DNA of 54,215 nt. Origin: Bdellovibrio sp. GTDB taxonomy: Bacteria > Myxococcota > SpSt-1050. The translations under genes were made by a program, and so were the position numbers. Below, in pieces: positions 5,946-52,516 of the stretch; the stretch's first letter is position 1; each line of letters begins with the position of its first letter. The DNA lies in NCBI GenBank assembly GCA_020725805.1, contig DYEF01000091.1:1-54215 (forward strand), in the 5' to 3' direction. The notes beneath the pieces are model-generated. The model searched no databases. It saw only the letters and a program-made list of their open reading frames with translations, and had not been told where the DNA came from.

Positions 5946-6427
5946 TAAAGACGGCTATTTACCCCGGTTCCTTTGACCCCATTACAAACGGACATATTGA
6001 TATCCTGAAAAGGGCTCTTAAGGTCTTTGACCGCGTTATACTTGCAATTGCGTGTAATCCGAGGAAGCATTCTCTTTTTACGGTCGAGGAGAGAATAAGA
6101 CTTGCAAGAGAGGTTTTCAGAAATGACAAAAGGGTAATCGTCGACTCATTCACAGGGCTTCTCGTGGATTATGTCAGAAGAAAAAAATCGAATGTGGTAA
6201 TCAGGGGGCTGAGGGCTGTATCTGATTTCGAATATGAATTTCAGATGGCACATATGAATATGAAACTTGCCCCGGAAATCGAGACTTTCTTTATGATGAC
6301 AGGACAGGAACATTTCTATATAAGTTCACAGACCGTGAAAGAAGTTGCAACATTTAGCGGCTGTGTAAAGGGAATTGTGCCTCCTAATGTCGAGAAGGCA
6401 CTCAGGGAAAAATACGGGAATAAATGA
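5942..6427 (+). CDS. coaD: Phosphopantetheine adenylyltransferase CoaD
   Basis: CoaD transfers AMP from ATP to 4'-phosphopantetheine, giving dephospho-CoA in the penultimate step of CoA synthesis. The 161-aa protein starts with the nucleotidyltransferase signature [15 protein letters not shown] (T/HxGH motif) and carries the conserved [21 protein letters not shown] block and the C-terminal [10 protein letters not shown] motif that binds the nucleotide. It is translationally coupled to rsmD upstream and to the Ser/Thr kinase downstream, each through an ATGA overlap. Confidence 0.97.
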
Positions 6428-7587
6428 GTAGTTCAAAGCAGAAATGCCCTATATGTGGTTTTCAGAACGATGTCTCTATCTATGTAACGGGACAGAAGGC
6501 ACGTTGTCAGAAGTGTCAGATACTTTTCGAGGTAAAGAGGTCAGAGAGTTTTGACGGAACAATCGGGCAGGGAGAGGAGGGGAGAAAGAGTGAAGAGCAT
6601 CAGGGCGTTCAGAAGGAGACCCTTATATTTTCCGACATACCGCAGATTCCGGGCTACGAGATTATAGGGGTAATAGGCAAAGGAGGGATGGGTTCGGTAT
6701 ATAAGGCCAAACAGCTTTCATTAAACAGAATGGTGGCAATAAAGGTATTGAAGAGTGAATTTGCTTCGCAGAAGGATTTTATTCTGCGATTCAACAGGGA
6801 GGCCGAGGTTCTTGCCAGACTTTCCCATCCCAATATAGTACCGATTATCGATAAAGGTGCAAAGGACGGCCTTTTCTATTTCGTAATGGAATTTATTGAC
6901 GGAGAGACTTTGAGGCACAAACTTAAGAACGGAAGGCTCAGGTTTGACGAGGCAATAAAGTATACATTGCAGATTCTGAGGGCTATCTCGTTTGCCCATA
7001 AACAGAATGTCATACACAGGGACCTGAAACCCGAGAATGTGCTCATAGATACATCCGGTAATGTCAGAATCGCTGATTTCGGACTTGCCGATATTGTAGG
7101 TGCCCAGAACGATTATTCTCTGACAGGTTCGGGTATGGCTATGGGCACGGCACATTATATGGCACCTGAACAGAGGAGGGATGCAAAGAGGGTAGACCGG
7201 AGGGCGGACATCTTTTCTCTCGGAATTACGCTCTATGAAATGCTTGCGGGAGAAGTGCCTCAGGGAAATTTCAAAAAGATATGCCAGCTGAGGGGCGATG
7301 TGAATCCCGCAATCGATCTCGTAATTGAAAAATCCATAGCCTCCAAACCTCAGGAGAGATATCAGTCTGCCGATGAGATGACTACTGCCATAAGGGCTGC
7401 TATTGCAGAGGTAGAAAAAAAGACAATTGCTGCCGGAGAGAAACAGGAATCGGACGAACTGATAGAAGTAAAGTCCATTTCATCTGTCAAAGAAAATAAA
7501 AAACTTAAAAGATATTTGCTGTTTGGCGTCGTCTCATCGCTGATTGTTCTGGCTGTGGTCCTTTTACTCGTCTGGCTTTTAAGATAA
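6424..7587 (+). CDS. Zinc-ribbon Ser/Thr protein kinase with C-terminal membrane anchor
   Basis: This 387-aa Hanks-type kinase has an N-terminal zinc ribbon (CPICG...CQKCQ, residues 8-32) and a kinase domain at about 76-340 with glycine loop GKGGMGSVY, catalytic Lys in VAIKVLK, an intact HRDLKPEN loop, DFG (IADFGLAD) and a [10 protein letters not shown] activation segment. It ends in one hydrophobic helix ([20 protein letters not shown]) with only three residues after it, so it is a tail-anchored cytoplasmic kinase without an external sensor. It is coupled to coaD by an ATGA overlap. All catalytic residues are present, unlike the kinase-like proteins at 22.4 and 49.5 kb. Its 3' end overlaps the convergent hybrid kinase by nine bases. 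Confidence 0.93.
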
Positions 7588-11751: not shown

Positions 11752-12513
11752 TTAAACGATTTTGAGCAATATACAGGTGATATTGTCGACTCCGCCGTTT
11801 TCGTTGGCCCGCTGAATCAGAATCTCGTTTGCCTTTTCGAGGTTGTCTCTGTTTGATAGTATGATATTCTTCATCTCATCATCTTTGACCATCCCTGAGA
11901 GACCATCTGTGCACAGCAGAAAAATATCGCCCGGATTGGGTCTTATACGGTTTATGTCAACCTGAACGGTCTCTTTCATCCCGAGGGCTCTTACAATGAC
12001 ATTTTTATGAGGGAAATTTTCGAGTTCCTCGGGTGTAAGTTTTTTGGCCTTGATATAGTCATTGAGGAGAGAATGGTCTTCTGTAATCTGTTTCATCTCG
12101 GAACCACTTATAAGATAGCATCTGGAATCTCCGACGTGGGCAATGATAACTTCATCGTTTTTGAAGAGTGCAGAAACTATTGTAGTACCCATACCTCTGT
12201 ATTTTGCCTCGCGCTGGGCAGATTCGTAGATTCTGAGATTGGCAAGTTTGATAGAGGTTACAAGCCTGTTCTCCTGATAATCCCTACCTTTGTCCATCTT
12301 GAACGGCCAGGTTACTTCGTCATCATTGGAGGTCGATTTGAAAAAATTGGCTACCGTCTCGACAGCCATCTGAGAGGCTATCTCTCCGGAGGAGTGCCCG
12401 CCCATTCCGTCAGCAATAATGTAGAGCCCTTCATCCTCGACAATGAAGAAAGAGTCTTCATTATGGCTTCTCTTCATTCCTACATTTGTAATACCGGCGG
12501 CAACTGGTTTCAT
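11752..12513 (-). CDS. PP2C-family protein Ser/Thr phosphatase
   Basis: This 253-aa soluble enzyme should dephosphorylate Ser/Thr residues with two metal ions and is the natural counterpart of the Hanks kinases in this window. PP2C motifs are in order: RSHNEDSFF (first metal Asp), YIIADGMGGHSSGE, MGTTIVSALF, IAHVGDSRCYL, ITEDHSLLN, LLCTDGLSGMV and GGVDNITCILLKI. Length and motif order match the stand-alone PrpC/Stp class. It is divergent from a degenerate membrane sensor at 12.6 kb with a dyad between them. No kinase sits directly beside it; the nearest intact one is at 6.4-7.6 kb. Confidence 0.95.
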   Translation of the reverse strand: MKPVAAGITNVGMKRSHNEDSFFIVEDEGLYIIADGMGGHSSGEIASQMAVETVANFFKSTSNDDEVTWPFKMDKGRDYQENRLVTSIKLANLRIYESAQREAKYRGMGTTIVSALFKNDEVIIAHVGDSRCYLISGSEMKQITEDHSLLNDYIKAKKLTPEELENFPHKNVIVRALGMKETVQVDINRIRPNPGDIFLLCTDGLSGMVKDDEMKNIILSNRDNLEKANEILIQRANENGGVDNITCILLKIV

Positions 12514-13910: not shown

Positions 13911-16900
13911 TTAGAAGATTTCCGTATTTTTATCACTGTTTATATTTGCCGTCTGAATTTTCAGAGTATCTTTCGTGTGTCTTAAGAGTTCTGCCTTATG
14001 ACAGTTCAGATATACTGCACCGTGGTCGTCTTCGACCCTTCCTGTGAGGAGGAGAGGTAGTCCGTCCGATATTGTGTTGTGGCAGCTTCTGAATGCATCC
14101 GGAAAGAAGACTGCTTCGAAAATACCTGTCTCGTCTTCAAATGTAACAAACTCCATCAGTTCCTTTGTGCGGGTCTGAACAGGTTTGGATGTTATGGGCA
14201 ATCCGGCAATCCTTACGAATCTGCCTGTTGCTCTGTCTATATCTTTTGCAGTAATTGTCCCGCAGGGCAGGTCTTTTTTCCCAATCATACTTACAGGATG
14301 GACCGAGAGGGGGAATCCGAACATCTCGTATTCATATCTGATGAGTTGTTCGTCTGAGTAAGGCGGGAGTTCGGCGAAGGTGCGGGGATAATTTTTCAGA
14401 AGACTTCCCGCCTTCCCTTTGCTGAGTATTTCGGATTTCAGGAGGATAGCGGGACGGTTTTTTATACCTTCGGTTCTGTCGAATGCACCGGAGAGAATCA
14501 GTCTTCGTATGTCACAGAAGTCGATATGCGGATTTCTTTCGAGAAAGTTTTCCAGTGAGGTGTAATATCCCCTTTCTTCCCGCTCTTTCACAATGTTATG
14601 AGATACTTCTCTTGAGAGGGAGATTATGTCATCGAATCCGAGCCAGACCGAATCCCCGCAGGCCGTGGCCCCTGTCTCCGAGACGTTTATATCGGGCGGA
14701 TTGACTCTGATTCCCATTCTTCTCGCCTCCGAGATATAGGCAAAGACCGGGTAGTAGCCGCCCTTGTTTCTGATGACCGAAGCGATGAATTCGGCAGGAA
14801 AGTGTGCCTTTATGTAGGCCGACATAAACGAGACCTGTGCGTATGATGCCGAATGAGGTTTACAGAATGAATATCCTCCGAATGATTCGATCATTGCCCA
14901 GATTTCGGTCAGGATGGTATCCGGTGTCCCGTTCTTTCTCCCGCCTTCGAGGAATTTTTCGCGGTAGTACTGAATTTTTTCAGCCCTGTGTTTTTTCGAG
15001 AGCGTCTTTCTGAGTCTGTCGGCCTCCTCGTATGAAAATCCGGCAACCTGAATCGCTGCCTTCATTACATCTTCCTGATAACACATAATCCCGTATGTCT
15101 CCGAGAGCAGGTCGGAGAGGGCGGGGTGGAGTGGTCTGTACGGTTTGCCTTTCAGTCTTTCCACGTATTCGTTGATATATCTGTTTGCTGCAGGCCTGAT
15201 AATGGAGCTGTGAATGACAATGTGTTCGAAGTCGGAGACGCCGGTCTTTCTCTGGAGTTGCCTCATCGCCGGAGACTCTATATAGAATACCCCGATGGTC
15301 TTCCCCTCTTTTATCAGTTCGAGGGTTTTCGGGTCTTCCTCGAATATAATTCCTCTTTTGTCTATATCTGTCCCGTAGTTCCTTTTTATCATCTCTTTTG
15401 CATCTCTGATAACCGCGAGTGAACGGTTGCCGAGTACATCAATCTTGATTATATTCAGATTCTCGATATCATCCTTGTCCCACTGCATTACATATTTTCC
15501 GCCGCCTGTTATCCCGACCGGTACTGTCTCTTTTATATCCCTGTCTGATATTACAATCCCTCCGCAGTGAGTTGATATGTGACGGATATTGTTGCAGATA
15601 AGACGTGCTATGCCGGATATCGTTTTTACTGGTTCTCTCCGGCAGATTTTTCCTTCGGGTTCTTCAAAATGAGTATTACTGCTGTTCCCGTGATGCAGAC
15701 TGATTCTCTTTACGATACGGTTTATCTCGGCTTCGCTGAATCCGAATACCCTTGCGACCTCCCTTATCGCGAGTCTGTTTGAGAATGAGTTGTGATTGGA
15801 GACCTGAGCCACCCTGTCTTTGTATTTTTCAAATATGTAGTTTATGACCTTTTCCCTCTCGTCCCATGCAAAATCGATATCGATATCGGGCGGGTCACTC
15901 CGTTCGGGGTTCAGGAATCTTTCGAACATCAGATTATGTCTTACCGGGTCGACATTTGTGATGCCGAGACAATATGATACAAGACTTGCGGCGGCCGAAC
16001 CTCTTCCGCAGGTCAGATGGCTCTTCTCCACTATATCCCTGACCAGAAGAAAGTACCCTGCATATCCCTTTTTTGAGATTATATCCAGTTCGTAACATAG
16101 CCGTTTCTCTATTCCGGCTGTGATTACCTTATATCTTGCCTTTGCCCCTTCGAATGCGAGCTGCGTAAGTCTTCCGGGGGCATCTTTTATGTCGCTGCCC
16201 GGAAGTATGCGGGCAAAATTGTATTCTGCCCTGAAGAGTAAGGATTCGATTGAGTTCATATTTACGAATGCCTCTTTTATATGTGCAAATCTCGTCTCTG
16301 TAACCTTTGAGGGGAGCAGAACCGAATCTTTGAGCTGATAATAAAGATGTTTCATCTCATCGAATCTCTTCTTATGAGCAATGCACCTGAGGACAATCCC
16401 TGTGAAAATGTCTCTGCCGGACAGAAAGATTGTCTCCCGGTATATAACCGGTTTTATCCCTTCAGCTCTGATGAGAGGGTATAGTCTGATATTACCTGTG
16501 CCGATACCGAAGAAGATATTCTCCGTTGAGTCCCTGAGGATTCTGCTTAGCCTCAGGTCGGAACTGATTATAATGAGACCGCTGTTCCTCTCTTTTATGA
16601 GATTTGTAAATTCCTCCGTGCTAAGGTTCTTTTCTGTGTTTATGACAGATATCAGATAGCAGAGATTTGAAAACCCTGTATCGCTGACAGGGATTGCCAG
16701 AACCGAAAGATTCTTCTCTCTGTCCGGATATTTAAGATATGTGCCTGTAAAAATCTTCTTTTTGTGTTCTTTTCTCAGACTGAGAATCTCTGCAAGACCG
16801 TAGAGATTATTTGTATCGGCAATCAGTACCGATGAATATCCGGCCTCCTCCGAATATCTGATTATCTCCTCCGGACTGTGAACTCCTTCAAGTAGTGAGA

Positions 16901-16928
16901 ATGAGGATTTGAAAGATATCAGCATCAT
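13911..16928 (-). CDS. dnaE2: Error-prone DNA polymerase III alpha subunit DnaE2
   Basis: The 1005-aa protein is a C-family polymerase of DnaE2 (ImuC) size. The catalytic palm is intact: GRGSAAASLVSY, the Asp348/350/352 cluster in PPDIDIDF and the KIDVLGNRSL motif with the third Asp. Fingers (YGIMCYQEDVM, DRLRKTLSKK), the CKPHSASYAQ motif, a HhH region and a C-terminal OB fold (VRIAGLPITSKPV onward) follow. The N-terminal PHP domain is present but its metal ligands are gone: SFKSSFSLLEG replaces HxHSxFSLLDG and ADTNNLYG replaces TDHGNLYG, so no proofreading is expected there. The open frame continues upstream, but ATG 16928 overlaps the imuB stop as ATGA and starts directly at the PHP homology. 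Its place in a LexA-controlled operon supports a role in SOS translesion synthesis. Confidence 0.93.
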   Translation of the reverse strand: MMLISFKSSFSLLEGVHSPEEIIRYSEEAGYSSVLIADTNNLYGLAEILSLRKEHKKKIFTGTYLKYPDREKNLSVLAIPVSDTGFSNLCYLISVINTEKNLSTEEFTNLIKERNSGLIIISSDLRLSRILRDSTENIFFGIGTGNIRLYPLIRAEGIKPVIYRETIFLSGRDIFTGIVLRCIAHKKRFDEMKHLYYQLKDSVLLPSKVTETRFAHIKEAFVNMNSIESLLFRAEYNFARILPGSDIKDAPGRLTQLAFEGAKARYKVITAGIEKRLCYELDIISKKGYAGYFLLVRDIVEKSHLTCGRGSAAASLVSYCLGITNVDPVRHNLMFERFLNPERSDPPDIDIDFAWDEREKVINYIFEKYKDRVAQVSNHNSFSNRLAIREVARVFGFSEAEINRIVKRISLHHGNSSNTHFEEPEGKICRREPVKTISGIARLICNNIRHISTHCGGIVISDRDIKETVPVGITGGGKYVMQWDKDDIENLNIIKIDVLGNRSLAVIRDAKEMIKRNYGTDIDKRGIIFEEDPKTLELIKEGKTIGVFYIESPAMRQLQRKTGVSDFEHIVIHSSIIRPAANRYINEYVERLKGKPYRPLHPALSDLLSETYGIMCYQEDVMKAAIQVAGFSYEEADRLRKTLSKKHRAEKIQYYREKFLEGGRKNGTPDTILTEIWAMIESFGGYSFCKPHSASYAQVSFMSAYIKAHFPAEFIASVIRNKGGYYPVFAYISEARRMGIRVNPPDINVSETGATACGDSVWLGFDDIISLSREVSHNIVKEREERGYYTSLENFLERNPHIDFCDIRRLILSGAFDRTEGIKNRPAILLKSEILSKGKAGSLLKNYPRTFAELPPYSDEQLIRYEYEMFGFPLSVHPVSMIGKKDLPCGTITAKDIDRATGRFVRIAGLPITSKPVQTRTKELMEFVTFEDETGIFEAVFFPDAFRSCHNTISDGLPLLLTGRVEDDHGAVYLNCHKAELLRHTKDTLKIQTANINSDKNTEIF

Positions 16929-18079
16929 ATCCTGTCTTCGATCCCGAATCTGATTGCGCTGTCGCCGAATCGTTTCCGTATGGTATCTATAGCGGAGAAG
17001 AGCCTTCTCTCCCTGCTTTGCGGAAGGCTTATCAGCTCCTGCTGTGCAAAGACAGGTGAGAGGAGAGATGCCTCTGCCGTTATGTCTTTTATATTTATCC
17101 TCCGCGTTCTGATGCGGTAGAAAAGTGCTCTTAGAAGACGGTATATCGATATATCGGTATTTATTTTCGGTTTTGCACCTGAGTATCCCTCTGCGGAAAT
17201 ATTGTCTGTATATGTGATTACGAGCCTGAATCTGCCCGCGGCGCATCTTCTCTCCCTGAGCCTGAATCCGATATCCGATGCAAGAAAGAATATCTTTTTT
17301 GAGAGAGTTTCGTAACTGTTTTCTTCGTATGAAATAACCGTCTCTTCCCTTATTAAAGGGTGGTTTTTTGTAAAAATCGGTCTGATATCGGTCCCGCAAC
17401 TCCAGAGTTTGAAGAGATTACCTGATTTGCCGAATATTGCACACAGCTCTTCTGTGCTGAATCTGGTGATATCTCCTACCTTGAATATGCCGTAGTCAGA
17501 GAATCTTTGAAGTATCCATTTGTCGGTGCCGGGGAGAATTCTGACAGACATCGGGGAGATGAATGTCTGCTCCGAACCGTTTATGACCCTCAGCAGGGCG
17601 TCGGTATTGAAGAAGGATGCGGCGGCTTTGCTTATAAGTTTGCTGCTTCCGATTCCTATGTGACTCCTGAGTCCTGTCTGGTAATATATTTCCCTGAAAA
17701 GTCTGAGGGCAAGGTCTTCCGGTGCCCCGAATGCCCTGCCTGTCCCTCTGATATCCATATATGTCTCGGATGTGGGAAGTATTTCGTATATCGGGGTAAA
17801 TCTGCCTATGAGAGACTCAATTGCGGATAGTACACGGGTATATTTTCTGTTATCTGGTCTTATGATGAGAGTATCCTTTTCCAGTGTTTTTGCCTCCGCA
17901 ACTGTCATATCACGTCTGATACCTGCCCTGTAGGCAGTCTCTGATATCTCAAGAACGGGAGAATAAAGGGAATCCGAGGATGCGATTATAAAAGGTCTCC
18001 CTTTGAGTGAATGGTCGTATAGTGACTCTACCGATGAGAGAAAGAACGGTATGTTTATGTGCAGTATCTCTTTCTTCAT
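16925..18079 (-). CDS. imuB: ImuB-like inactive Y-family polymerase
   Basis: The 384-aa protein has a Y-family (DinB/UmuC) fold, with conserved landmarks such as RAGIRRDMTVAEA, SHIGIGSSKLISKAAA and ILPGTDKWILQRF. The metal-binding residues are lost: HINIPFFLSSVES replaces HVDMDCFFASVE (both Asp gone) and LPTSETYMDI replaces SIDEAYLD (Asp to Ser; Glu kept). This is the hallmark of ImuB, a non-catalytic adaptor that recruits DnaE2 to the sliding clamp. A QQELISLP segment near residue 350 could be a weak clamp-binding motif. It sits between lexA and dnaE2, 31 bp after lexA and coupled to dnaE2 by ATGA. No imuA/recA-like gene is present. Confidence 0.88.
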   Translation of the reverse strand: MKKEILHINIPFFLSSVESLYDHSLKGRPFIIASSDSLYSPVLEISETAYRAGIRRDMTVAEAKTLEKDTLIIRPDNRKYTRVLSAIESLIGRFTPIYEILPTSETYMDIRGTGRAFGAPEDLALRLFREIYYQTGLRSHIGIGSSKLISKAAASFFNTDALLRVINGSEQTFISPMSVRILPGTDKWILQRFSDYGIFKVGDITRFSTEELCAIFGKSGNLFKLWSCGTDIRPIFTKNHPLIREETVISYEENSYETLSKKIFFLASDIGFRLRERRCAAGRFRLVITYTDNISAEGYSGAKPKINTDISIYRLLRALFYRIRTRRINIKDITAEASLLSPVFAQQELISLPQSRERRLFSAIDTIRKRFGDSAIRFGIEDRI

Positions 18080-18110
18080 AAGATGACAGAATCTGTAAAG
18101 ATGATTCCGT

Positions 18111-18734
18111 TTACAGTTTCCTGATTAGCCCAATAACTTTCCCTATAATTTTGACATCTGAGCCGGATGTGGAGTCTATATTTATGTCTGCATAGAGCGG
18201 ATTCGATGCCTTGAGTATTACTCTGTCTCCTTCTTTGTAGAAATATTTAAGTGTGGCTTCCTCTTCTATGATGGCAACTACTATTTCACCGTTTTCCGCA
18301 TCATTCTGCGGGTGAATAATTGCTATGTCACCGTCATTTATACCGGCCCCCTTCATACTGTCGCCCTTTATCCGTAGTGCGAATATGTCGTTGCCTTTGA
18401 AGAGTTCACGGTCGACCGATATATATTTTTCGAGATTTTCGAGAGCAGTAATTGGTTTGCCGGCCGCTATTGTGCCTATCAGGGGGATATTGACCGAATT
18501 GAGTGAGGATATACCGAAAAATTCAGATGTTTTCAGACCACGCGCTTTATTGGGCTCTTTTTTGAGGAGGCCCTTTTTGTGAATGAGTCTCAGGTGTGTC
18601 CGCACTGAGTTGTCAGAGGCATATCCGAAGCGCTTTGCTATCTCTTTGAGGGTAGGGGGACGGCCCTCTGTCTGTATATGCAGATTGATAAAGTCGAGAA
18701 TTGCCCTCTGCTTTTGTGTAAGGACTGTTGCCAT
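18111..18734 (-). CDS. lexA: LexA SOS repressor
   Basis: LexA represses SOS genes and cleaves itself when RecA filaments form on damaged DNA. The 207-aa protein has an N-terminal winged helix (RPPTLKEIAKRFGYASDNSVRTHL), the Ala91-Gly92 cleavage site (IAAGKP) and the Ser126/Lys163 catalytic dyad (GDSMKG, ATLKYFY). The spacing of these residues equals that of E. coli LexA. The ORF is open further upstream, but ATG 18734 is preceded by GGGAGG and by a promoter with an SOS box, and the homology starts at MATVLTQKQR. It is the first gene of lexA-imuB-dnaE2 and is expected to repress its own operon. Confidence 0.97.
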   Translation of the reverse strand: MATVLTQKQRAILDFINLHIQTEGRPPTLKEIAKRFGYASDNSVRTHLRLIHKKGLLKKEPNKARGLKTSEFFGISSLNSVNIPLIGTIAAGKPITALENLEKYISVDRELFKGNDIFALRIKGDSMKGAGINDGDIAIIHPQNDAENGEIVVAIIEEEATLKYFYKEGDRVILKASNPLYADINIDSTSGSDVKIIGKVIGLIRKL

Positions 18735-18766
18735 CGTATAAAAACCTCCCTTATAATACGAAATCT

Positions 18767-18795
18767 GTAATACTGCATATTTACGCAGTATGCAA
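18767..18795 (-). promoter_or_regulatory. lexA operon promoter
   Basis: On the minus strand TTGCAT (18790-18795) and TATTAC (18767-18772) are separated by exactly 17 bp. The SOS box fills the spacer and overlaps both hexamers, so bound LexA would block RNA polymerase. A GGGAGG ribosome binding site and ATG 18734 follow. Confidence 0.65.
18770..18791. promoter_or_regulatory. LexA operator (SOS box), CTG-N10-CAG type
   Basis: A perfect inverted repeat ATACTGC-N8-GCAGTAT lies 36 bp before the lexA start. It contains CTG-N10-CAG and matches TACTG-N10-CAGTA, the classic enterobacterial SOS box. Its symmetry, position and overlap with the promoter make autoregulation very likely. Confidence 0.88.
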
Positions 18796-19060
18796 GTAAA
18801 AAGATGTATGGTAACAGGTGCTGATAACCGGTGCCAGTTAGACATATTCGCTGACTTTCCTGAAGACACATTTTAACCACTTGGATTTATTGAATATTTT
18901 GATATGTGTGCCGGGTATCGCATTGGTTTGGATCTGAACTGAGCCCGTCTTAACCGGATATATGATTCAGGTTTAATCCTTAATTCCGATTGGCTTCTTT
19001 TGAATTTTTCAGACTTTTTAATTCTTCCCTTTTTCCCTGTTTTGGGATATCTGTCCGGAT

Positions 19061-22038: not shown

Positions 22039-22410
22039 ATGAGATTTTTTAAGTTTATATATTCGCTCTTTTTTCTCGGAATCCTCTTTGCGCTTCATCT
22101 GGCCAAATATATATTTACAAAAAAACTGAGCAGCCGGGAATTTATTGAGAGGTTCAGGCAGGATAATATCGGTATCATAAGCGGCGAGGAGGTTCGCATT
22201 ATTCAGAATTCTGCTGACTGTATATGCTGTAATGTATGTTCGGTCTATACTTCAAAAGAGAGTTTTGCCGATGGTTCGGAAATCTGTTCAAGGCTTGTAA
22301 GGGATTCTACACAGTATATCAAAGCAGATAAGCGGAATAAGAATTCAGGTTACGGGGATTGTCCCTATCAGATTGATATCGGAAGAATCTCCGGGTTTGT
22401 CTCAAAATAA
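22039..22410 (+). CDS. Small membrane-anchored Cys-rich protein
   Basis: I do not recognise this 123-aa family. It has one N-terminal membrane helix (FFKFIYSLFFLGILFALHLA) and a soluble domain with a tight cluster Cys61, Cys63, Cys64, Cys67 (DCICCNVC) plus Cys83 and Cys108. The cluster could hold a metal or Fe-S centre, or form disulfides, depending on which side of the membrane it lies. The gene begins almost at the predicted transcription start, so it is probably leaderless. The kinase-SUMF1 fusion starts 12 bp downstream and is preceded by CGGAGGAG, so the two are cotranscribed and may work together. Confidence 0.7.
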   Translation: MRFFKFIYSLFFLGILFALHLAKYIFTKKLSSREFIERFRQDNIGIISGEEVRIIQNSADCICCNVCSVYTSKESFADGSEICSRLVRDSTQYIKADKRNKNSGYGDCPYQIDIGRISGFVSK

Positions 22411-22422
22411 TCGGAGGAGTTT

Positions 22423-24474
22423 GTGCTCTGTAAAAAATGCGGCAGTTATAATCCCGACGGTTCAGAGATATGCGGAGTCTGTAAAGAGCCGCTTCTTGTA
22501 AAGTCCTCCGGCTCCATCAGACAGAAGATCGATTCCGAAAAACTGCTGGTTCAGATTAAAAGCACTATAAACGAACGTTATTTCATTACACGTTTTATAG
22601 GTGAGGGTACTTTTGCACAGGTCTTCTATGCCATAGACAAGGCGACCAACAGCGGGGTGGCACTGAAAATATTCAAGCCGTTCGTTTTCAAAAATGAGGA
22701 AGAGATGTCTCGGCTTGTCTGGGGTGTAAGAGGGATTAAAGACATTTCTCATCCGAATCTGGTCAGAATTTTTGACTCGGATATCTCACATGAAGGCTGG
22801 GTCTATATCTCTATGAAATTCATCTACGGGATGTCTCTCAAGAATACAATAAAACTCAGGACGGAGGTAGGCAAGCCTTTCAGTTTCGAGGAGATCGAAC
22901 CTCTCTTCTTCCAGATGGGAGAGATCCTGAACGAGATGCATCCTACTATATGTCACGGGGATTTTAAACCTTCGAATATAATTATTCAGCCCGACTATAT
23001 CAAACTTACCGATACGACTATTCTGAACTATATTACGCTCTCCAACTGCATAAAGCAGATTAAGGAGGACAAGTCGAATATCTATCTGGCACCTGAAATT
23101 CTGGAAGGTAATGAACCATCATACAGGAGTGATATCTATTCCTGCGGCAGAATACTGCAGACGCTCCTCTCCGGTTCAGAGGAGAAGGATATCAGCAAAA
23201 TCCAGCTGTTCAAATACAATGAGGAGATAGACAGGAGACTGAAGGCTGTAATCAGCAAAGCCACGAGTCCGGACCCGCTCGCAAGGCATAATGATGTAAA
23301 TGAATTTAATGCAGAATTGTTCGAAGTCCTTTCGATCTACAATGAACTCCCCCAGACAGTAAAGGATGAGTATCACCAGAGTATCTCTGCAGTAGAGACA
23401 AAATTTGTTCATATCAGAAAAAAATCCGAATCACGGAAGGCGGAGGATGAAAAAAAGCCCCTGAAAACCCTGTTTGGTAAAAGAGCCCTGATAATCGTGC
23501 TATTTTTACTGATAGCAGTTCTGACTGCAACAGGTCTGTTTCTCTATGACAGATTCAGATCCGATACGACCTCACTTACAGCGGATATAACTGTTCCTCT
23601 TATTGCGGGAAAAGACGTCGCAGCGGATATCCCGGTCAGTGAAGAACCTGATGTGGTTTATGAAGATATTTTGGCTTTATCATCAGATGATGCTGCCTCT
23701 GTATCGGATCTGACTCCGGGGCCTGAAAAGAGACCACCGGAACAACAGAAAGAGAAGGCAGAGAAAAAAGAGACAGGCGGTACAGCGCTGACCGAGAAGC
23801 AGAAGACGGAGGAGAAGAAAAAGGAGGAGAAGCCGGAAGAGAAGGGGAAGACCGAAAAGGAGCAGTTGACAGAGGAGAAAGAGAAGGTTAAGGGTGCGGG
23901 CGGGTGTCCGAAGGATATGATTTATATCAAAGCCGGTTCCTTCAAAATGGGCTCGGTCCCCGGTGATGAGGGGCGTCAGGCAGATGAGCCGGCATTTGTT
24001 TCCGTAAATACACACGCATACTGCATCGACAGATATGAATATCCCAACAAGAAGGGTGCTATGCCGAAGACCTCCGTCTCCTTCGATGAGGCTGATAAAC
24101 TCTGTGCCGCCGCCGGTAAAAGACTCTGTTCGGAGGAGGAGTGGGAGAGGGCCTGTAAGGGTCTTTCGATGCTCAAATATCCGTATGACAATGTCTTCGA
24201 CCCGACTATATGTAACGCCGAGAGTAATTCCGGTGAAGAGAAGAAGGTGGCAGCTTCAGGGCAGTTCCCGAAATGCAGGAGCACCTACGGTGTATATGAT
24301 ATGTCCGGAAATGTTGCCGAATGGGTCTTTATGAAGGATGGCCAGAAAGGTGTCAAGGGAGGTTATGTAAACAAGCCCGACTGGGCGGTAAGATGTGCCT
24401 CCAGAAGGGTCGAGTTAGGTTCCAAGAAATCCCCGTTTTACGGTTTCAGATGCTGTATGGATGTCGATGAATGA
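22423..24474 (+). CDS. Zinc-ribbon / degenerate Ser-Thr kinase / TM / SUMF1-fold fusion
   Basis: The 683-aa protein starts at GTG 22423 after CGGAGGAG. Order: zinc ribbon (CKKCG...CGVCK, 3-21), kinase-like domain (about 52-310), one membrane helix (about 353-373), charged linker (about 400-490) and a C-terminal SUMF1/formylglycine-generating-enzyme fold (CPKDMIYIKAGSFKMGS to GFRCCMD). The kinase keeps its glycine loop (GEGTFAQV), Lys in VALKIF and the catalytic Asp180, but HRD is HGD and DFG is DTT (KLTDTTIL), so activity is doubtful. In SUMF1 the region between VKGG and RCASRR holds Asn/Trp where true enzymes have two active cysteines, so it is likely a binding module outside the cell membrane. 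A similar fusion lies at 49.5 kb. Confidence 0.88.
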   Translation: MLCKKCGSYNPDGSEICGVCKEPLLVKSSGSIRQKIDSEKLLVQIKSTINERYFITRFIGEGTFAQVFYAIDKATNSGVALKIFKPFVFKNEEEMSRLVWGVRGIKDISHPNLVRIFDSDISHEGWVYISMKFIYGMSLKNTIKLRTEVGKPFSFEEIEPLFFQMGEILNEMHPTICHGDFKPSNIIIQPDYIKLTDTTILNYITLSNCIKQIKEDKSNIYLAPEILEGNEPSYRSDIYSCGRILQTLLSGSEEKDISKIQLFKYNEEIDRRLKAVISKATSPDPLARHNDVNEFNAELFEVLSIYNELPQTVKDEYHQSISAVETKFVHIRKKSESRKAEDEKKPLKTLFGKRALIIVLFLLIAVLTATGLFLYDRFRSDTTSLTADITVPLIAGKDVAADIPVSEEPDVVYEDILALSSDDAASVSDLTPGPEKRPPEQQKEKAEKKETGGTALTEKQKTEEKKKEEKPEEKGKTEKEQLTEEKEKVKGAGGCPKDMIYIKAGSFKMGSVPGDEGRQADEPAFVSVNTHAYCIDRYEYPNKKGAMPKTSVSFDEADKLCAAAGKRLCSEEEWERACKGLSMLKYPYDNVFDPTICNAESNSGEEKKVAASGQFPKCRSTYGVYDMSGNVAEWVFMKDGQKGVKGGYVNKPDWAVRCASRRVELGSKKSPFYGFRCCMDVDE

Positions 24475-26512: not shown

Positions 26513-27226
26513 ATGCAAAATCTTTTCGTTTTTATTCTGTTTTCTGTGTTTTTAATTTCCTGTAAGGCAGGGGATTGTCCGCCGGAGATGGTTGAATTCA
26601 GGCTGGATTCTAAGAGTTTTTGTATCGACAGATACGAAAATTATATCATCGGTTATGATAAGAATGGAAAGTCATACAGATATACACCTGTATTTGAATC
26701 AGTGATAAAAAAGGATGGTAAATTTCTCCCCGGCAATATTTTCAATAAATCGGAACTTAAAGATAAAATCTATGCAAGGGCCGGAAAAGGAATGACACCT
26801 ACGGATAACATAAGCTGGATGGAGGCGGAGATTGCCTGTAAAAATTCCGGCAAGAGATTATGTAAGTCTGAGGAGTGGGATTTTGCCTGTATGGGGACGG
26901 AGAAGAGAAAATATCCCTACGGGAACGAATATGCAGAGGATTTCTGCAATAGTTTCGAATCTGGTAAGAAGAGGGGGGTTATCGGAGTGCTTCCTTCAGG
27001 GACATTCGGAAAATGTGATAATGGTAAGGGGGTCTTTGACCTCTCCGGAAATCTCTGGGAATGGATAGATGCCACTGACGACTCTGGTTCCCTGAAACTT
27101 ATCAAAGGTGGCGGATTTTCAAATTCGGGCTACGATGAAGATACGATGACCTGCGGAAAGAAGAGGTTTCAGCCGCCTGATGTAAGACTCTCCGGTGCCG
27201 GATTCAGGTGCTGCAAAGACAGATGA
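26513..27226 (+). CDS. SUMF1-fold lipoprotein
   Basis: This 237-aa protein begins with a lipoprotein signal (MQNLFVFILFSVFLIS, then Cys). It consists of one SUMF1/formylglycine-generating-enzyme fold: CPPEMVEF, FCIDRYEN, ISWMEAEIACKNSGKRLCKSEEW, GVFDLSGNLWEWI, LIKGGGFSNSG and the terminal GAGFRCCKD. The two catalytic cysteines of true enzymes are not found in the segment after IKGG, so a binding or structural role is more likely. Its stop overlaps the start of an ABC permease as ATGA, so it is the first gene of a three-gene unit with a vitamin B12/iron-type importer, in the position where a substrate-binding lipoprotein would be expected. Confidence 0.88.
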   Translation: MQNLFVFILFSVFLISCKAGDCPPEMVEFRLDSKSFCIDRYENYIIGYDKNGKSYRYTPVFESVIKKDGKFLPGNIFNKSELKDKIYARAGKGMTPTDNISWMEAEIACKNSGKRLCKSEEWDFACMGTEKRKYPYGNEYAEDFCNSFESGKKRGVIGVLPSGTFGKCDNGKGVFDLSGNLWEWIDATDDSGSLKLIKGGGFSNSGYDEDTMTCGKKRFQPPDVRLSGAGFRCCKDR

Positions 27227-28212
27227 ACTCCGGAAGATATACAGGGCTGAAGATATTTCTGATACTGATAATCTTTATTATTTCGGTATTTCTCGGGGTC
27301 TTTTTCGGCAGTACAGGTTCAATCTTAGGACTGGATGCCGGTTTCGGGGAACTGTTTAATCTCAGACTTCCGAGGGTAATCGCTGCCCTCATTACAGGCG
27401 GGGCACTTGCAATATGCGGTGCTGCTCTTCAGTCTGTTCTGGAAAATCCGCTTGCCGAACCGTTCCTTCTCGGGGTCTCGGGTGGTTCAGTACTTGGCGG
27501 AACTATATGGATAGTATCGGGTGCTTTCATTTCCGATTCTGTATTCGGGATAAGGTTCTTTTCTTTTTCAGGAGCGATCGGCTCGATTTTCCTGCTACTC
27601 TACATCAACCGGCGGCAGGGGGGCCTCAGCCCTGTCAATATGCTCCTTACAGGTGTTATCTTCAACGGCTTTGTATCGGCTCTCGTAACTATATTCAAGG
27701 CATTTATACCTCCGGTAAAGCTCCAGAAAGTTACACTCTGGCTCTCCGGTTATATCCCATACCTTTCGCTGAATGATATCCTTTTGGAGACGATAGTTGT
27801 CTTGGTTATCTCTTTCTTGCTTGTTCTGGAGTCACCGCGGCTCAATATACTTGCTCTGGGTGAAGATATCGCCCGTACTTCGGGTATAAATGTGGGGTAT
27901 CTGAGAAAGAGGGTTTTTATTTATACCTCCTTACTGACAGGGATTGTAGTTTCTCTTACGGGTCTGATCGGTTTTGTAGGACTTATAATACCGCAGATGC
28001 TGAGATTTGCCGGCATCATCAACAACAGATATCTGTTGCCGTTATCATTCTTTGCCGGAGGTGCATTCGTTGTATTGTCCGACCTCCTTTCGAGGGTGAT
28101 GTCAGGATTGTACAGCTTCGAGCCGCCCATTTCGGCTATTACGGCGGTCATCGGTTGTCCGGTCTTTGTCATTCTGCTCAGGGATTATTACAGAGAGAGG
28201 GGAGGCGTGTAA
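27223..28212 (+). CDS. FecCD/BtuC-family ABC transporter permease
   Basis: The 329-aa integral membrane protein belongs to the family that imports iron-siderophore, haem or cobalamin. Typical blocks are LRLPRVIAALITGGALAICGAALQ, NPLAEPFLLGVSGG, NMLLTGVIFNGF, LIGFVGLIIPQMLRF and a C-terminal SFEPPISAITAVIGCPVFVILL. About nine to ten hydrophobic helices are seen. ATG 27223 (ATGA overlap) is chosen over ATG 27208 because it starts at the family N-terminus. It is followed by its ATPase with a one-base overlap. Confidence 0.93.
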   Translation: MNSGRYTGLKIFLILIIFIISVFLGVFFGSTGSILGLDAGFGELFNLRLPRVIAALITGGALAICGAALQSVLENPLAEPFLLGVSGGSVLGGTIWIVSGAFISDSVFGIRFFSFSGAIGSIFLLLYINRRQGGLSPVNMLLTGVIFNGFVSALVTIFKAFIPPVKLQKVTLWLSGYIPYLSLNDILLETIVVLVISFLLVLESPRLNILALGEDIARTSGINVGYLRKRVFIYTSLLTGIVVSLTGLIGFVGLIIPQMLRFAGIINNRYLLPLSFFAGGAFVVLSDLLSRVMSGLYSFEPPISAITAVIGCPVFVILLRDYYRERGGV

Positions 28213-28970
28213 TGCTCCGGATTTCGGGTCTGTCAGCAGGTTATTCGGAGGAGTTTGTGATAAGGGATATATGTGCCGATATCAGTGAAAACCTCTTCGT
28301 GGGAATAATCGGGAGAAACGGCTCAGGAAAATCAACACTTATCAGGTCGGTAGCGGGACTGATACCCATGTTCAAAGGCGAAATACTGTATAACGATATC
28401 AGTCTGACAGGAACGGACAGGACGGATATTCTCTCATATGTTCCGCAGGAGACTAAAGTATTGTTCGGTTTTTCTGTATATGAGATACTCAGGATGTCAC
28501 AGCGGTCATACGGCAGTTTTTTCGGTAAGTTTTCGCAGAAGGAGAAGAGGAGGCTCGAGGAGGTTATCGAGAGATTCGAGCTGAAAGAGATTCTAAAAAG
28601 AAATGTTCTTTCGCTATCCGGCGGTGAGAGGAGAAGGGTAATGGTTGCGAGAGGGGTTGCACAGGGTTCGGATATTATTCTGCTGGATGAACCGCTTTCA
28701 GGGCTGGATATTGACAATCAGGTTAAGGTTTTCCAGATACTGAAGGAGATATCCCTTGAGGGCAAGATTGTAATGGCATCCGTTCACGACCTGAATATGG
28801 CCGCCCAGTTCTGTGACAGGATTTTACTTATTGATAAAGGCAGGCTTGTAAAATTCGGGACAATAGAGGAAGTCCTTACTTATTCAAATATCAAAAATAC
28901 ATTCGGGATTGATGTCTATGTCGGGGTAAACGAGATCAACGGCAAGAGGTTTCTTATACCGTTCAGGTAA
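28212..28970 (+). CDS. FepC/BtuD-family ABC transporter ATPase
   Basis: The 252-aa nucleotide-binding subunit energises the permease encoded just upstream. It has Walker A (GRNGSGKST), Q-loop (YVPQET), the signature LSGGERRRVMVARG, Walker B (IILLDEPLSGLD) and the switch His (ASVHDL). ATG 28212 shares its A with the permease TAA stop (TAATG); the longer ORF start at 28155 lies inside the permease and precedes no family sequence. No periplasmic substrate-binding protein of the usual type is encoded nearby. Confidence 0.93.
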   Translation: MLRISGLSAGYSEEFVIRDICADISENLFVGIIGRNGSGKSTLIRSVAGLIPMFKGEILYNDISLTGTDRTDILSYVPQETKVLFGFSVYEILRMSQRSYGSFFGKFSQKEKRRLEEVIERFELKEILKRNVLSLSGGERRRVMVARGVAQGSDIILLDEPLSGLDIDNQVKVFQILKEISLEGKIVMASVHDLNMAAQFCDRILLIDKGRLVKFGTIEEVLTYSNIKNTFGIDVYVGVNEINGKRFLIPFR

Positions 28971-49458: not shown

Positions 49459-51999
49459 GTGATATGTTATAAATGCGGAAGTCATGTCCCGGATGGTTCA
49501 AAGACCTGTCCTACCTGTGGCAATAGTTTTGAAAAAGACAGCAAGAAGCAGGATTCGAAGGTAAAGCCACAGCCGAAGGCAAAGGAGAAGATAGGGTTCG
49601 ATATCGGTGATCTGGTAGCAGGCAGATATAAAATAAAAGCGAGAATCGGTGAAGGACCATCGGGAGTGGTCTTCCGTGTGCTTGATACTGAGATGGACGT
49701 AGATATTGCTCTGAAGGTAATATACAAGAGCGTTATTGAAAATGAGGCTGAAAACAAGAAGTTCCAGTCAGAGATGAGAATAGCCCGCAAGATCGCCCAT
49801 CAGAATATCGTCAGGGTTTACGATATCGACAGGGATAATGGTTATTCGTTTTATACAATGCAGCTTCTTGAAGGTCTTACCTTAAAGAAGATTATCAATC
49901 TCCGGACGGATAAGAAGCAGGTATTCTCGTTACAGGAAATCGAGCCGATATTTATACAGATTTTCAATGCACTGAGTGCTGCCCAGAGTTTTACTTATCA
50001 CGGCAACCTCAAACCCGAAAATATTATGATTCTTCCGGACCTCCTCAAGGTCTGTGATTTCTGTCTTGCGAAGGCACTGGGCAACGAAAAATTCAATGAG
50101 ATAAACGGCGCAAATGAGATATATATTGCACCCGAGATTAAATACAACTGGGATATCGTTGACTCGCGGGCAGATATCTATTCGATGGCAGTAATCATTT
50201 ACGAGATGGTAACCGGAGAGAAGTTCAAAAGTCTTCCGGTGTCGGCATCCCTCAAGAATCCCAATGTTCCGAAATCGATTGACAGTTTTCTCAATAAGGC
50301 ACTGAGCGAGGAACAGGATAAAAGATACGATTCGCTAAATGAGTTCATCGAGGAATTCAAGAAGGTTGTCGATAAGGAGGCCTCTTCAGGATACGAGGAA
50401 GGTCCCGAGGACGAGGAATTCATCGAGATTTCGACTGATGATTTCGAACTCATCGAGACACAGGAGAGGGAGAAGACACGCAAGAGGCTGCCCAAAGACA
50501 GGATTTTCTTCAGTGTGGAAGAGGAACTCAAGAAGAAGAAGGGAGAGGAGGAGGAGACGGAATCCTTAAAAGAAGAGGAGGGCGGCGAAGAATCTGTGAG
50601 ACCTTCTTCAAAGAGGCCGGAAAAGAAAGTCAGTCAGTTTGAAGAAGCCGATGAAGAAGAATCAAGAGAGGAGATAGTGGTAAAGAGAAGACCATTACCT
50701 CCTCCTGTAAAGGAAGAAGTAAAGACACCTCCTCAGAAGGAGATAAAGGTAGAGAAACCCGTAAAGCCATCTGCACCGCCCCCGCCTTCGGGTCATCAGG
50801 GTTCGAAGAGTATGGTAATCCCGATGATGATTCTGGTAATCATTCTTGCAGTTCTGGGAGGTGGAGTCTTTCTGCTCTACAAGGCTATGGAGAATCAGAG
50901 GGAGAGAGACAGGATTATGCTTGAGCAGCAAAGGATGGAGATTGAAAAGCAGAGAATGGCTCTTGAAAAGTATCAGCAGGAACTGCTCGCCCAGCTCGAG
51001 GCAGCCAAAAAATCTATGGCACAGCCAAAACCGGAGACAGATAAACCTAAAACTCCGGAACAGATAAAAAAGGAAGAAGAAGAGAAGAAAAAACTGATGG
51101 AACTCGAGGCGAGACTCTCCGAATTACAGAAGGAAAAAGAGAACCTTGATAAGAAGAGAGATGAAATTAAGGTTAAGGAGAAGACTGTCAAGAAAGAGGA
51201 GAGACCCAAATATCAGGAAGAACCGCCAAAGAAGAAGGAGAGACCGGTAAAGGAGACCGAGCCACCCAAAAAGATAGAAGTTGTAAAGGCAGAGGAGAAG
51301 AAGGCCGAACCTGCAAGAATTGAGGAGGCAAAGAAAGAGGAACTGAGACCTGTCGAGGAGCAGCCCAAAGTTGAGGAGAAGAAGGAGGAACCTGCAAAGG
51401 AAGAGAAGGCCACAGAAGAGACCCCGCCTCCGCCTCAGGAGAAGAAGCCTCAGTGCCCGAAAGGTATGGTATTGATTCCTGAGGGGACATTCACTATGGG
51501 TTCGTCCCCGTCTGACCCGATGAAGGGGTTTGGCGAAAAGAATAATACACAGGTTACAACACCCGCTTACTGCATCGATATCTTCGAATACCCCAATAAG
51601 AGAGGTGTCACTCCTAAGACGAATGTCGGTCAGCAGGAGGCTGAATCTCTCTGTCAGAAAGCAGGGAAGAGACTCTGTTCAGAGGAAGAATGGGAGAAAG
51701 CATGCAAGGGCCCCGGCAATGCAAAATTTGCCTATGGCAACACATTTGTACCGGGGAAGTGTAATACCGCAGATGCCGAAGGAAACAAGAGTGGCCTTCA
51801 GGCCTCCGGTTCACTCTCGGGCTGTGTAAGCGGTTACGGAGTCTATGATATGTCAGGCAACGCCGCTGAAATCACAAAGAACGCAGTCAAGGGAGGGTCG
51901 GCAGATAAGGCTGACTATGCCTCCAGATGCGCGGCCCGTGTCGCCAAGACAGCGGCTTCTCCAATGACAGGATTTAGGTGCTGTGCAGATCCGAAGTAA
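49459..51999 (+). CDS. Zinc-ribbon / pseudokinase / TM / coiled-coil / SUMF1-fold fusion
   Basis: The 846-aa protein starts at GTG 49459. Order: zinc ribbon (CYKCG...CPTCG, 3-21), kinase fold (about 55-310), acidic linker, one membrane helix (about 454-477), a long Lys/Glu-rich coiled coil (480-660) and a SUMF1 domain (CPKGMVLIPEGTFTMGS to GFRCCADPK). The catalytic loop reads HGNLKPEN: Asn183 (codon 50005-50007) replaces the proton-accepting Asp, and DFG is DFC, so it is almost certainly a pseudokinase. The ATP-anchoring Lys (IALKVI) remains. SUMF1 lacks both FGE active cysteines in VKGGSADKADYASRCAAR. It is a larger relative of the fusion at 22.4 kb; the CopZ-like gene begins inside its last codons. 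Confidence 0.9.
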   Translation: MICYKCGSHVPDGSKTCPTCGNSFEKDSKKQDSKVKPQPKAKEKIGFDIGDLVAGRYKIKARIGEGPSGVVFRVLDTEMDVDIALKVIYKSVIENEAENKKFQSEMRIARKIAHQNIVRVYDIDRDNGYSFYTMQLLEGLTLKKIINLRTDKKQVFSLQEIEPIFIQIFNALSAAQSFTYHGNLKPENIMILPDLLKVCDFCLAKALGNEKFNEINGANEIYIAPEIKYNWDIVDSRADIYSMAVIIYEMVTGEKFKSLPVSASLKNPNVPKSIDSFLNKALSEEQDKRYDSLNEFIEEFKKVVDKEASSGYEEGPEDEEFIEISTDDFELIETQEREKTRKRLPKDRIFFSVEEELKKKKGEEEETESLKEEEGGEESVRPSSKRPEKKVSQFEEADEEESREEIVVKRRPLPPPVKEEVKTPPQKEIKVEKPVKPSAPPPPSGHQGSKSMVIPMMILVIILAVLGGGVFLLYKAMENQRERDRIMLEQQRMEIEKQRMALEKYQQELLAQLEAAKKSMAQPKPETDKPKTPEQIKKEEEEKKKLMELEARLSELQKEKENLDKKRDEIKVKEKTVKKEERPKYQEEPPKKKERPVKETEPPKKIEVVKAEEKKAEPARIEEAKKEELRPVEEQPKVEEKKEEPAKEEKATEETPPPPQEKKPQCPKGMVLIPEGTFTMGSSPSDPMKGFGEKNNTQVTTPAYCIDIFEYPNKRGVTPKTNVGQQEAESLCQKAGKRLCSEEEWEKACKGPGNAKFAYGNTFVPGKCNTADAEGNKSGLQASGSLSGCVSGYGVYDMSGNAAEITKNAVKGGSADKADYASRCAARVAKTAASPMTGFRCCADPK

Positions 52000-52516
52000 A
52001 AATAGTAATAATTGTTGTTCCTCGGGCTGCAATTGCAGTTCAGAGATAACAGAAAGCGAAATTTGCCGTTATTGTAAGTCTTCAGGGATTTCTGTTAAAG
52101 GTCAGGTTCTGAAAACATTTCTGAAAGAAGAATGGAGTAAAGATATTGCGGAGAATGCAAATTTCTCTCTATGCTCAAATCCCGGTTGTAATATTTCTTA
52201 TTTCTCAAACAGAGAGAATGTATATTTTACGACAGAGGATTTGAAGTTACCAATATGGTTCAAGCGTGGTGCAGAACCCAAGATAATCTGTTATTGTCAC
52301 AGAATTACAGAGGAGATGATAAGAGAACAGGTGGAAAAACATAATCTTACTTCTTTTAGGGATATAGTATTGAAATACCGAAAGAAAATAGTTTGCAATT
52401 GTGACCGTTTAAACCCTACCGGTAATTGTTGTACAAAATACTTCTATGCTGTGATAAATGATACCCTGAAGTCTCTCGGGAGACCGGAAGTAGAAGTACC
52501 TGAGAACTGCTGCTGA
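51983..52516 (+). CDS. CopZ-like zinc/[2Fe-2S] metallochaperone domain protein
   Basis: The 177-aa protein resembles the N-terminal half of archaeal CopZ: zinc-binding cysteines (CRYCKSSG, LCSNPGCNISYFS), the FTTEDLKLPIWFK strand and a BFD-like [2Fe-2S] site (CYCHRITEEMI and CNCDRLNPTGNCC). The C-terminal HMA copper domain of CopZ is absent and no copper ATPase is near. A Cys-rich N-terminal tail (CCSSGCNCSS) may be a further metal site. GTG 51983 overlaps the previous stop by 17 bases. Confidence 0.8.
   Translation: MQIRSKNSNNCCSSGCNCSSEITESEICRYCKSSGISVKGQVLKTFLKEEWSKDIAENANFSLCSNPGCNISYFSNRENVYFTTEDLKLPIWFKRGAEPKIICYCHRITEEMIREQVEKHNLTSFRDIVLKYRKKIVCNCDRLNPTGNCCTKYFYAVINDTLKSLGRPEVEVPENCC

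Follow-up and report, generated by a model that had tools for sequence, protein, structure and literature searches.

Architecture of the fusion protein and its locus

The window, i.e. the whole stretch of 54,215 nucleotides analyzed here (contig DYEF01000091.1 of the Bdellovibrio sp. assembly GCA_020725805.1), contains two closely spaced genes on the forward strand. The first, P0002 (22039–22410), encodes a small membrane-anchored protein of 123 residues with a CxxCxxC...C...CP pattern, and the second, P0001 (22423–24474), begins 12 bp further downstream with a GTG codon and encodes a protein of 683 residues. P0001 combines an N-terminal zinc ribbon (22423–22512), a Hanks-type kinase-fold domain of the non-RD type (22558–23334), a single transmembrane (TM) helix at approximately residues 356–374 (23488–23544), a charged, disordered linker of about 116 residues (23545–23892) and a C-terminal SUMF1 domain with the formylglycine-generating enzyme (FGE) fold (23893–24471). 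The kinase and SUMF1 domains score above the Pfam cut-offs (Pkinase, 1.3e-26; FGE-sulfatase, 3.2e-24), and the zinc ribbon, recognized by its CxxC...CxxC pattern (C3, C6, C17 and C20), attains only 15 bits and falls under the cut-off. The TM helix was predicted by a combined hydropathy and charge scan that places the kinase side inside. In the AlphaFold2 model the kinase and SUMF1 domains are confidently folded, with a helix spanning residues 353–395 and a disordered segment at 384–489 (pLDDT <50). The composite architecture that had been proposed in the first-pass annotation is thus borne out by sequence, Pfam, structural model and TM scan, and the two open reading frames, including the cysteines at positions 61, 63, 64 and 67 of P0002, are as it described.

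The modelled kinase domain superimposes on M. tuberculosis PknA (Z 26.6, 2.2 Å over 245 residues). As a fold search with the whole model recovered only kinases, the SUMF1 domain was modelled alone (pLDDT 93), and it then superimposed on the S. coelicolor FGE (PDB: 2q17) with Z 23.0 and 2.4 Å over 182 residues. PorK, which is a GldK-type lipoprotein from the PorKN ring of the T9SS, shares the same fold with a Z of about 21. P0001, by contrast with PorK, is not a lipoprotein, and it lacks the FGE cysteine pair: the stretch that corresponds to the catalytic cysteines (GG...R) reads KGGYVNKPDWAVRCASR, in agreement with the earlier statement that the active cysteines are missing.

Several established classes were considered for P0001 and set aside. 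It has the fold of an FGE and none of its active-site cysteine pair; an EgtB/SenA-type sulfoxide or selenoxide synthase would have an N-terminal DinB-like iron-binding domain, for which Pfam gives no match, the kinase occupying that place; and as a GldK/PorK lipoprotein of the T9SS it scores 39 bits against an NCBIfam cut-off of 350, its N-terminus being a zinc ribbon. As a canonical Hanks-type kinase it has the fold and the Lys/Asp/Asn/Asp set, and lacks the HRD arginine, the Phe-Gly of DFG and the αC glutamate. A SUMF1 receptor diversified by a diversity-generating retroelement (DGR) was likewise dismissed, there being no match to the reverse transcriptase profile RVT_1 in this 98% complete genome.

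Phyletic distribution and conserved features of the family

Fusions of kinases to SUMF1 (DUF323/FGE-sulfatase) domains are known, for example in chlamydial kinases, in which the kinase fold is followed by SUMF1 in one protein as in P0001 (PMC1262709). Compared with these, by description, the family typified by P0001 adds a zinc ribbon, a TM helix with a long linker, a non-RD or pseudokinase domain throughout and a SUMF1 domain with ten cysteines. A literature search found no paper describing the zinc ribbon-kinase-TM-SUMF1 fusion, and the family is apparently uncharacterized.

The fusion occurs in a single open reading frame in 39 of 58 sampled genomes. Both the kinase and SUMF1 domains are found in 44 open reading frames from these 39 genomes and two named MAGs, and further cases, truncated at the end of a contig or broken into pieces, lie outside this count. 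All family statistics refer to the 58 genomes and two MAGs, and the distribution outside the phylum is only a sketch drawn from the matches listed for strict SUMF1 peptides. Full-length matches to P0001 fall from 72% identity in the same genus (G001) through 42% in the same order (G002) to 33% elsewhere in the phylum (G031), and the proteins range from about 680 to 1170 residues. P0001 itself has the domain order, the catalytic loop of the form H[GSL]x and the ten cysteines by which the family is defined. A member from the MAG K_Offshore_0m_m1_055, labelled Myxococcota, nests among the members from this phylum in the tree, which points to Myxococcota as the phylum sampled. In a rumen MAG (L066) the kinase domain of a member is interrupted at about 2977–2980 by an in-frame TAG, which could be a sequencing error, a pseudogene or a case of recoding.

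The zinc ribbon is present in 40 of the 44 members, its four cysteines being invariant in 18 that were aligned. A TM segment separates the kinase (or zinc ribbon) from SUMF1 in all 45 proteins scanned for hydropathy and charge, in 33 of which positive charge is more abundant on the side of the kinase, and the linker between this segment and SUMF1 varies from 28 to 304 residues. Ten cysteines are invariant across 46 SUMF1 domains (each in 45–46 of the 46, one row being gapped at the first cysteine), a conservation that suits an oxidizing compartment; the FGE pair is found in none of the 46. From the charge bias and the cysteine pattern only, we infer that SUMF1 lies outside the cytoplasm and the kinase inside it.

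A second member, of 846 residues, is encoded in the window itself (49459–51999, forward strand), as established by Pfam, motif comparison and the tree. It comprises a zinc ribbon, a pseudokinase with HGN and DFC motifs, a TM helix and SUMF1, and is the copy that stands closest to the phylum-wide lineage. P0001 and this second member belong to different subclades, each with orthologs in G001 and G002, and the duplication therefore dates back at least to the origin of the order. The 3' end of this second gene is overlapped by the gene for a Cys-rich protein (51983–52516) that matches zf_CopZ and, weakly, a BFD-like [2Fe-2S] domain. The first-pass annotation had mentioned neither this second fusion nor two further elements described below, namely a SUMF1 lipoprotein at 26513–27226 and an HRD/DFG copy elsewhere in the genome.

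Degeneration of the kinase active site

Alignment confirms that P0001 has HGD (residues 178–180) in place of HRD and DTT (197–199) in place of DFG, as reported earlier, and additionally reveals a glycine in place of the αC glutamate; K82, D180, N185 and D197 are retained. These features are part of a family-wide trend. The HRD arginine is absent from all 49 family kinase domains (0/49), in which the motif is replaced by HGD (18), HGN (9), HSD (8), HGA (4), HGG (3), HGS (3) and others, and the catalytic aspartate is absent from 23. The β3 lysine persists in 48 of the 49 and the catalytic-loop asparagine in 46, and all four chemical residues are retained together in 25 members, P0001 included, for which reason P0001 and some of its relatives may be active kinases. 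When the state of the catalytic aspartate is placed on the tree, 9–10 changes are obtained, of which at least 5 are forced by well-supported branches. One lineage lacks the kinase domain altogether: the member in G047 (L055, 4315–5952) keeps dut upstream, the zinc ribbon, the TM helix and SUMF1. The complete absence of the HRD arginine, the repeated loss of the aspartate and this kinase-less member together argue that catalysis is not what maintains the family, and the last provides a natural variant with which the role of the pseudokinase domain becomes directly testable.

A separate group in the tree, with a support of 100/99, is formed by six HRD kinases, of which five have the zinc ribbon-kinase-TM-SUMF1 architecture. 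The HRD proteins of this same genome (G000:C17, L001), of another Myxococcota MAG (L074) and of Acidobacteriota (L072 and L087) have the domain order of P0001; unlike P0001, they carry HRD with DFG, which is DFS in L087, and fall within this group by their kinase domains. G000:C17 is accordingly an active-looking copy of the same architecture at another locus of the genome that encodes P0001.

These observations bear on the foremost alternative, namely that P0001 is an active non-RD TM receptor kinase, in which SUMF1 would bind a ligand and the HGD kinase would phosphorylate without activation-loop control. Retention of the four chemical residues in P0001 and two orthologs, the close match to the active PknA and the kinase domain being the best conserved part of the protein within the genus (88% identity) speak for such an enzyme; the αC Glu-to-Gly and DFG-to-DTT replacements, the missing HRD arginine, the repeated loss of the catalytic aspartate in relatives of the same architecture and the loss of the entire domain in one of them speak against it, and on balance we regard this alternative as unlikely, if well worth keeping in mind. 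The earlier description of the kinase as "weak or dead" is fair insofar as it denotes a weak or non-catalytic domain, but "dead" is not claimable for P0001 because Lys82, Asp180, Asn185 and Asp197 are kept.

The adjacent cysteine-rich gene

By profile searches, P0002 appears to be a diverged relative of small, membrane-anchored Fe-S proteins of the HdrC/Fer4_8-like kind, and a functional partnership with P0001 is not supported. A relative in G002 (L150) scores above the Fer4_8 cut-off (2.5e-8), and another in G018 (L146), which lies beside glpA- and glpB-like genes as judged from the translation, has a very similar spacing of five cysteines; the hhalign probability to both is 93%. A further protein, L156 of G006, matches a four-row P0002 profile at 5.8e-19. 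The conserved cysteines of P0002 are those at 61, 64, 67, 83 and 108, Cys63 being replaced by serine in G001. The complete 4Fe-4S motif CxxCxxCxxxC is not present in P0002, which has CxxCxxC and two separate cysteines only, and the putative cluster binding is unproven because the match extends mainly from the N-terminal anchor through CxxCxxC.

The first-pass annotation had suggested that the two genes form a functional pair, perhaps sensing redox or metal, and had named a lack of conserved linkage as its refutation; such a lack is what the comparison shows. At E 0.001, only two of the 58 genomes gave a match to P0002, which lies beside P0001 in the same genus only. There it belongs to a block (rsmA, amidohydrolase, P0002, P0001 and pepP) that is conserved as a whole in G001, so that the adjacency carries little weight. 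The P0001 copies of G002 and G031 lack P0002, and the P0002-family profile has no match beside any other family kinase tested. The notion of a redox- or metal-sensing pair therefore has no support from linkage, although P0002 does resemble Fe-S proteins. In this alternative, P0002 would be the Fe-S redox module of the pair; the 12 bp spacing on the same strand, kept in G001, and the membership of P0002 in a diverged Fe-S protein family favor it, but the lack of linkage elsewhere, the incomplete cluster motif and the variable Cys63 render it quite improbable.

Functional interpretation

Between P0001 and its ortholog in G001, the domains are 83–88% identical and the linker 30%. Synonymous sites are saturated, and pN amounts to 0.064 in the kinase, 0.098 in SUMF1 and 0.455 in the linker, a pattern that identifies P0001 as a set of constrained domains on a free tether and indicates strong purifying selection. 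That P0001 is in decay, as the remnant of a kinase-SUMF1 enzyme on its way to losing function, is scarcely credible: motif loss in both domains would fit, but the low pN with saturated synonymous sites, a coding sequence free of stops and conservation across the phylum all oppose it. P0001 is therefore no lone decayed copy, as its motif loss is shared by the family and purifying selection on it is strong.

With moderate confidence, we interpret P0001 as a single-pass inner-membrane protein of a receptor- or scaffold-like nature, non-catalytic or weakly catalytic, which couples an envelope SUMF1 domain to a cytoplasmic partner. The essence of the earlier proposal, that an outward-facing SUMF1 module is coupled to a kinase that is weak or a pseudokinase, is supported. 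More generally, these proteins are probably not normal kinases themselves and serve to relay signals across the membrane or to hold structures on its two sides together. In the mechanism that we envisage, the disulphide-stabilized, non-catalytic SUMF1 domain, resembling a C-type lectin, would bind a ligand or envelope partner on its flexible tether, and the TM helix would relay this binding as a changed state of the zinc ribbon-pseudokinase unit. The latter would act mainly through its conformation or by binding proteins, either recruiting a partner in the cytoplasm or controlling it allosterically. That SUMF1 binds a ligand and that the signal passes without catalysis are inferences, and the kinase-fold domain probably still binds ATP.

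Among the candidates for this partner are the ordinary HRD kinases of the genome. Its 16 kinase domains include 12 with HRD, one (L196) that the motif scan did not resolve and three without HRD (HQN, HGN and HGD), leaving about 13 ordinary kinases as potential partners; with 12 HRD kinases at hand, allosteric control of an active kinase by P0001 is possible. Within the window, an HRD/DFG kinase whose N-terminus likewise resembles a zinc ribbon (6424–7587) and a PP2C-like phosphatase (11752–12513), the latter judged from sequence only, are possible partners in ordinary Ser/Thr signalling.

Bacterial pseudokinases are an accepted class, and the kinomes of Myxococcota are among the largest in bacteria. 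Of the 99 kinases of M. xanthus, 11 are reported to be pseudokinases (PMC6791715). A 2025 review of bacterial pseudokinase families recognizes seven that are rich in pseudokinases and mentions neither SUMF1 nor Myxococcota, as judged by its text (PMC12599244). The TM pseudokinase scaffold EssB/YukC (PMC12599244) offers a bacterial precedent for the membrane scaffold proposed for P0001, but it differs in having all three catalytic motifs degraded, in being part of the T7SSb and in lacking SUMF1. The plant non-RD receptor kinase EFR, whose catalytic activity is dispensable for signalling (PMC8463890), shares with P0001 an external sensor domain, one TM segment and a non-RD kinase; its ectodomain consists of LRRs and its lineage is unrelated, and the analogy is one of mode only.

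Association with dut and other genomic context

The dUTPase gene dut lies directly upstream of 31 of the 49 family genes, on the same strand, and is upstream of neither P0001 nor the copy at 49459–51999. Some of the dut-linked loci are near pnp and purB. Most lineages of the phylum retain the family pseudokinase, frequently as one copy per genome next to dut, and it is therefore likely to be of importance to the cell. More tentatively, and with distinct reservation, the family could be viewed as Myxococcota-wide TM receptors that have given up catalysis and kept ATP binding, and that would convey an envelope signal through ATP-dependent conformation or scaffolding in some connection with the dut locus.

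In this genome, SUMF1 seems to serve as an all-purpose module outside the cytoplasm. Its other contigs encode several secreted Cys-rich proteins that end in a SUMF1 domain (L004, L005 and L007), and the window contains the SUMF1-only lipoprotein P0003 (26513–27226, forward strand), whose C-terminal SUMF1 domain (residues 89–234) shares several of the family cysteine positions. The Cys-rich lipoprotein gene overlaps the start of a gene for a FecCD/BtuC-like permease, and this group, which also includes an ABC ATPase gene, extends over 26513–28970. Elsewhere in the window (13911–18869, reverse strand), genes for a LexA-like repressor, a Y-family polymerase-like protein and a DnaE-type polymerase stand in a row and, on sequence grounds alone, resemble the lexA-imuB-dnaE2 mutagenesis cassette.
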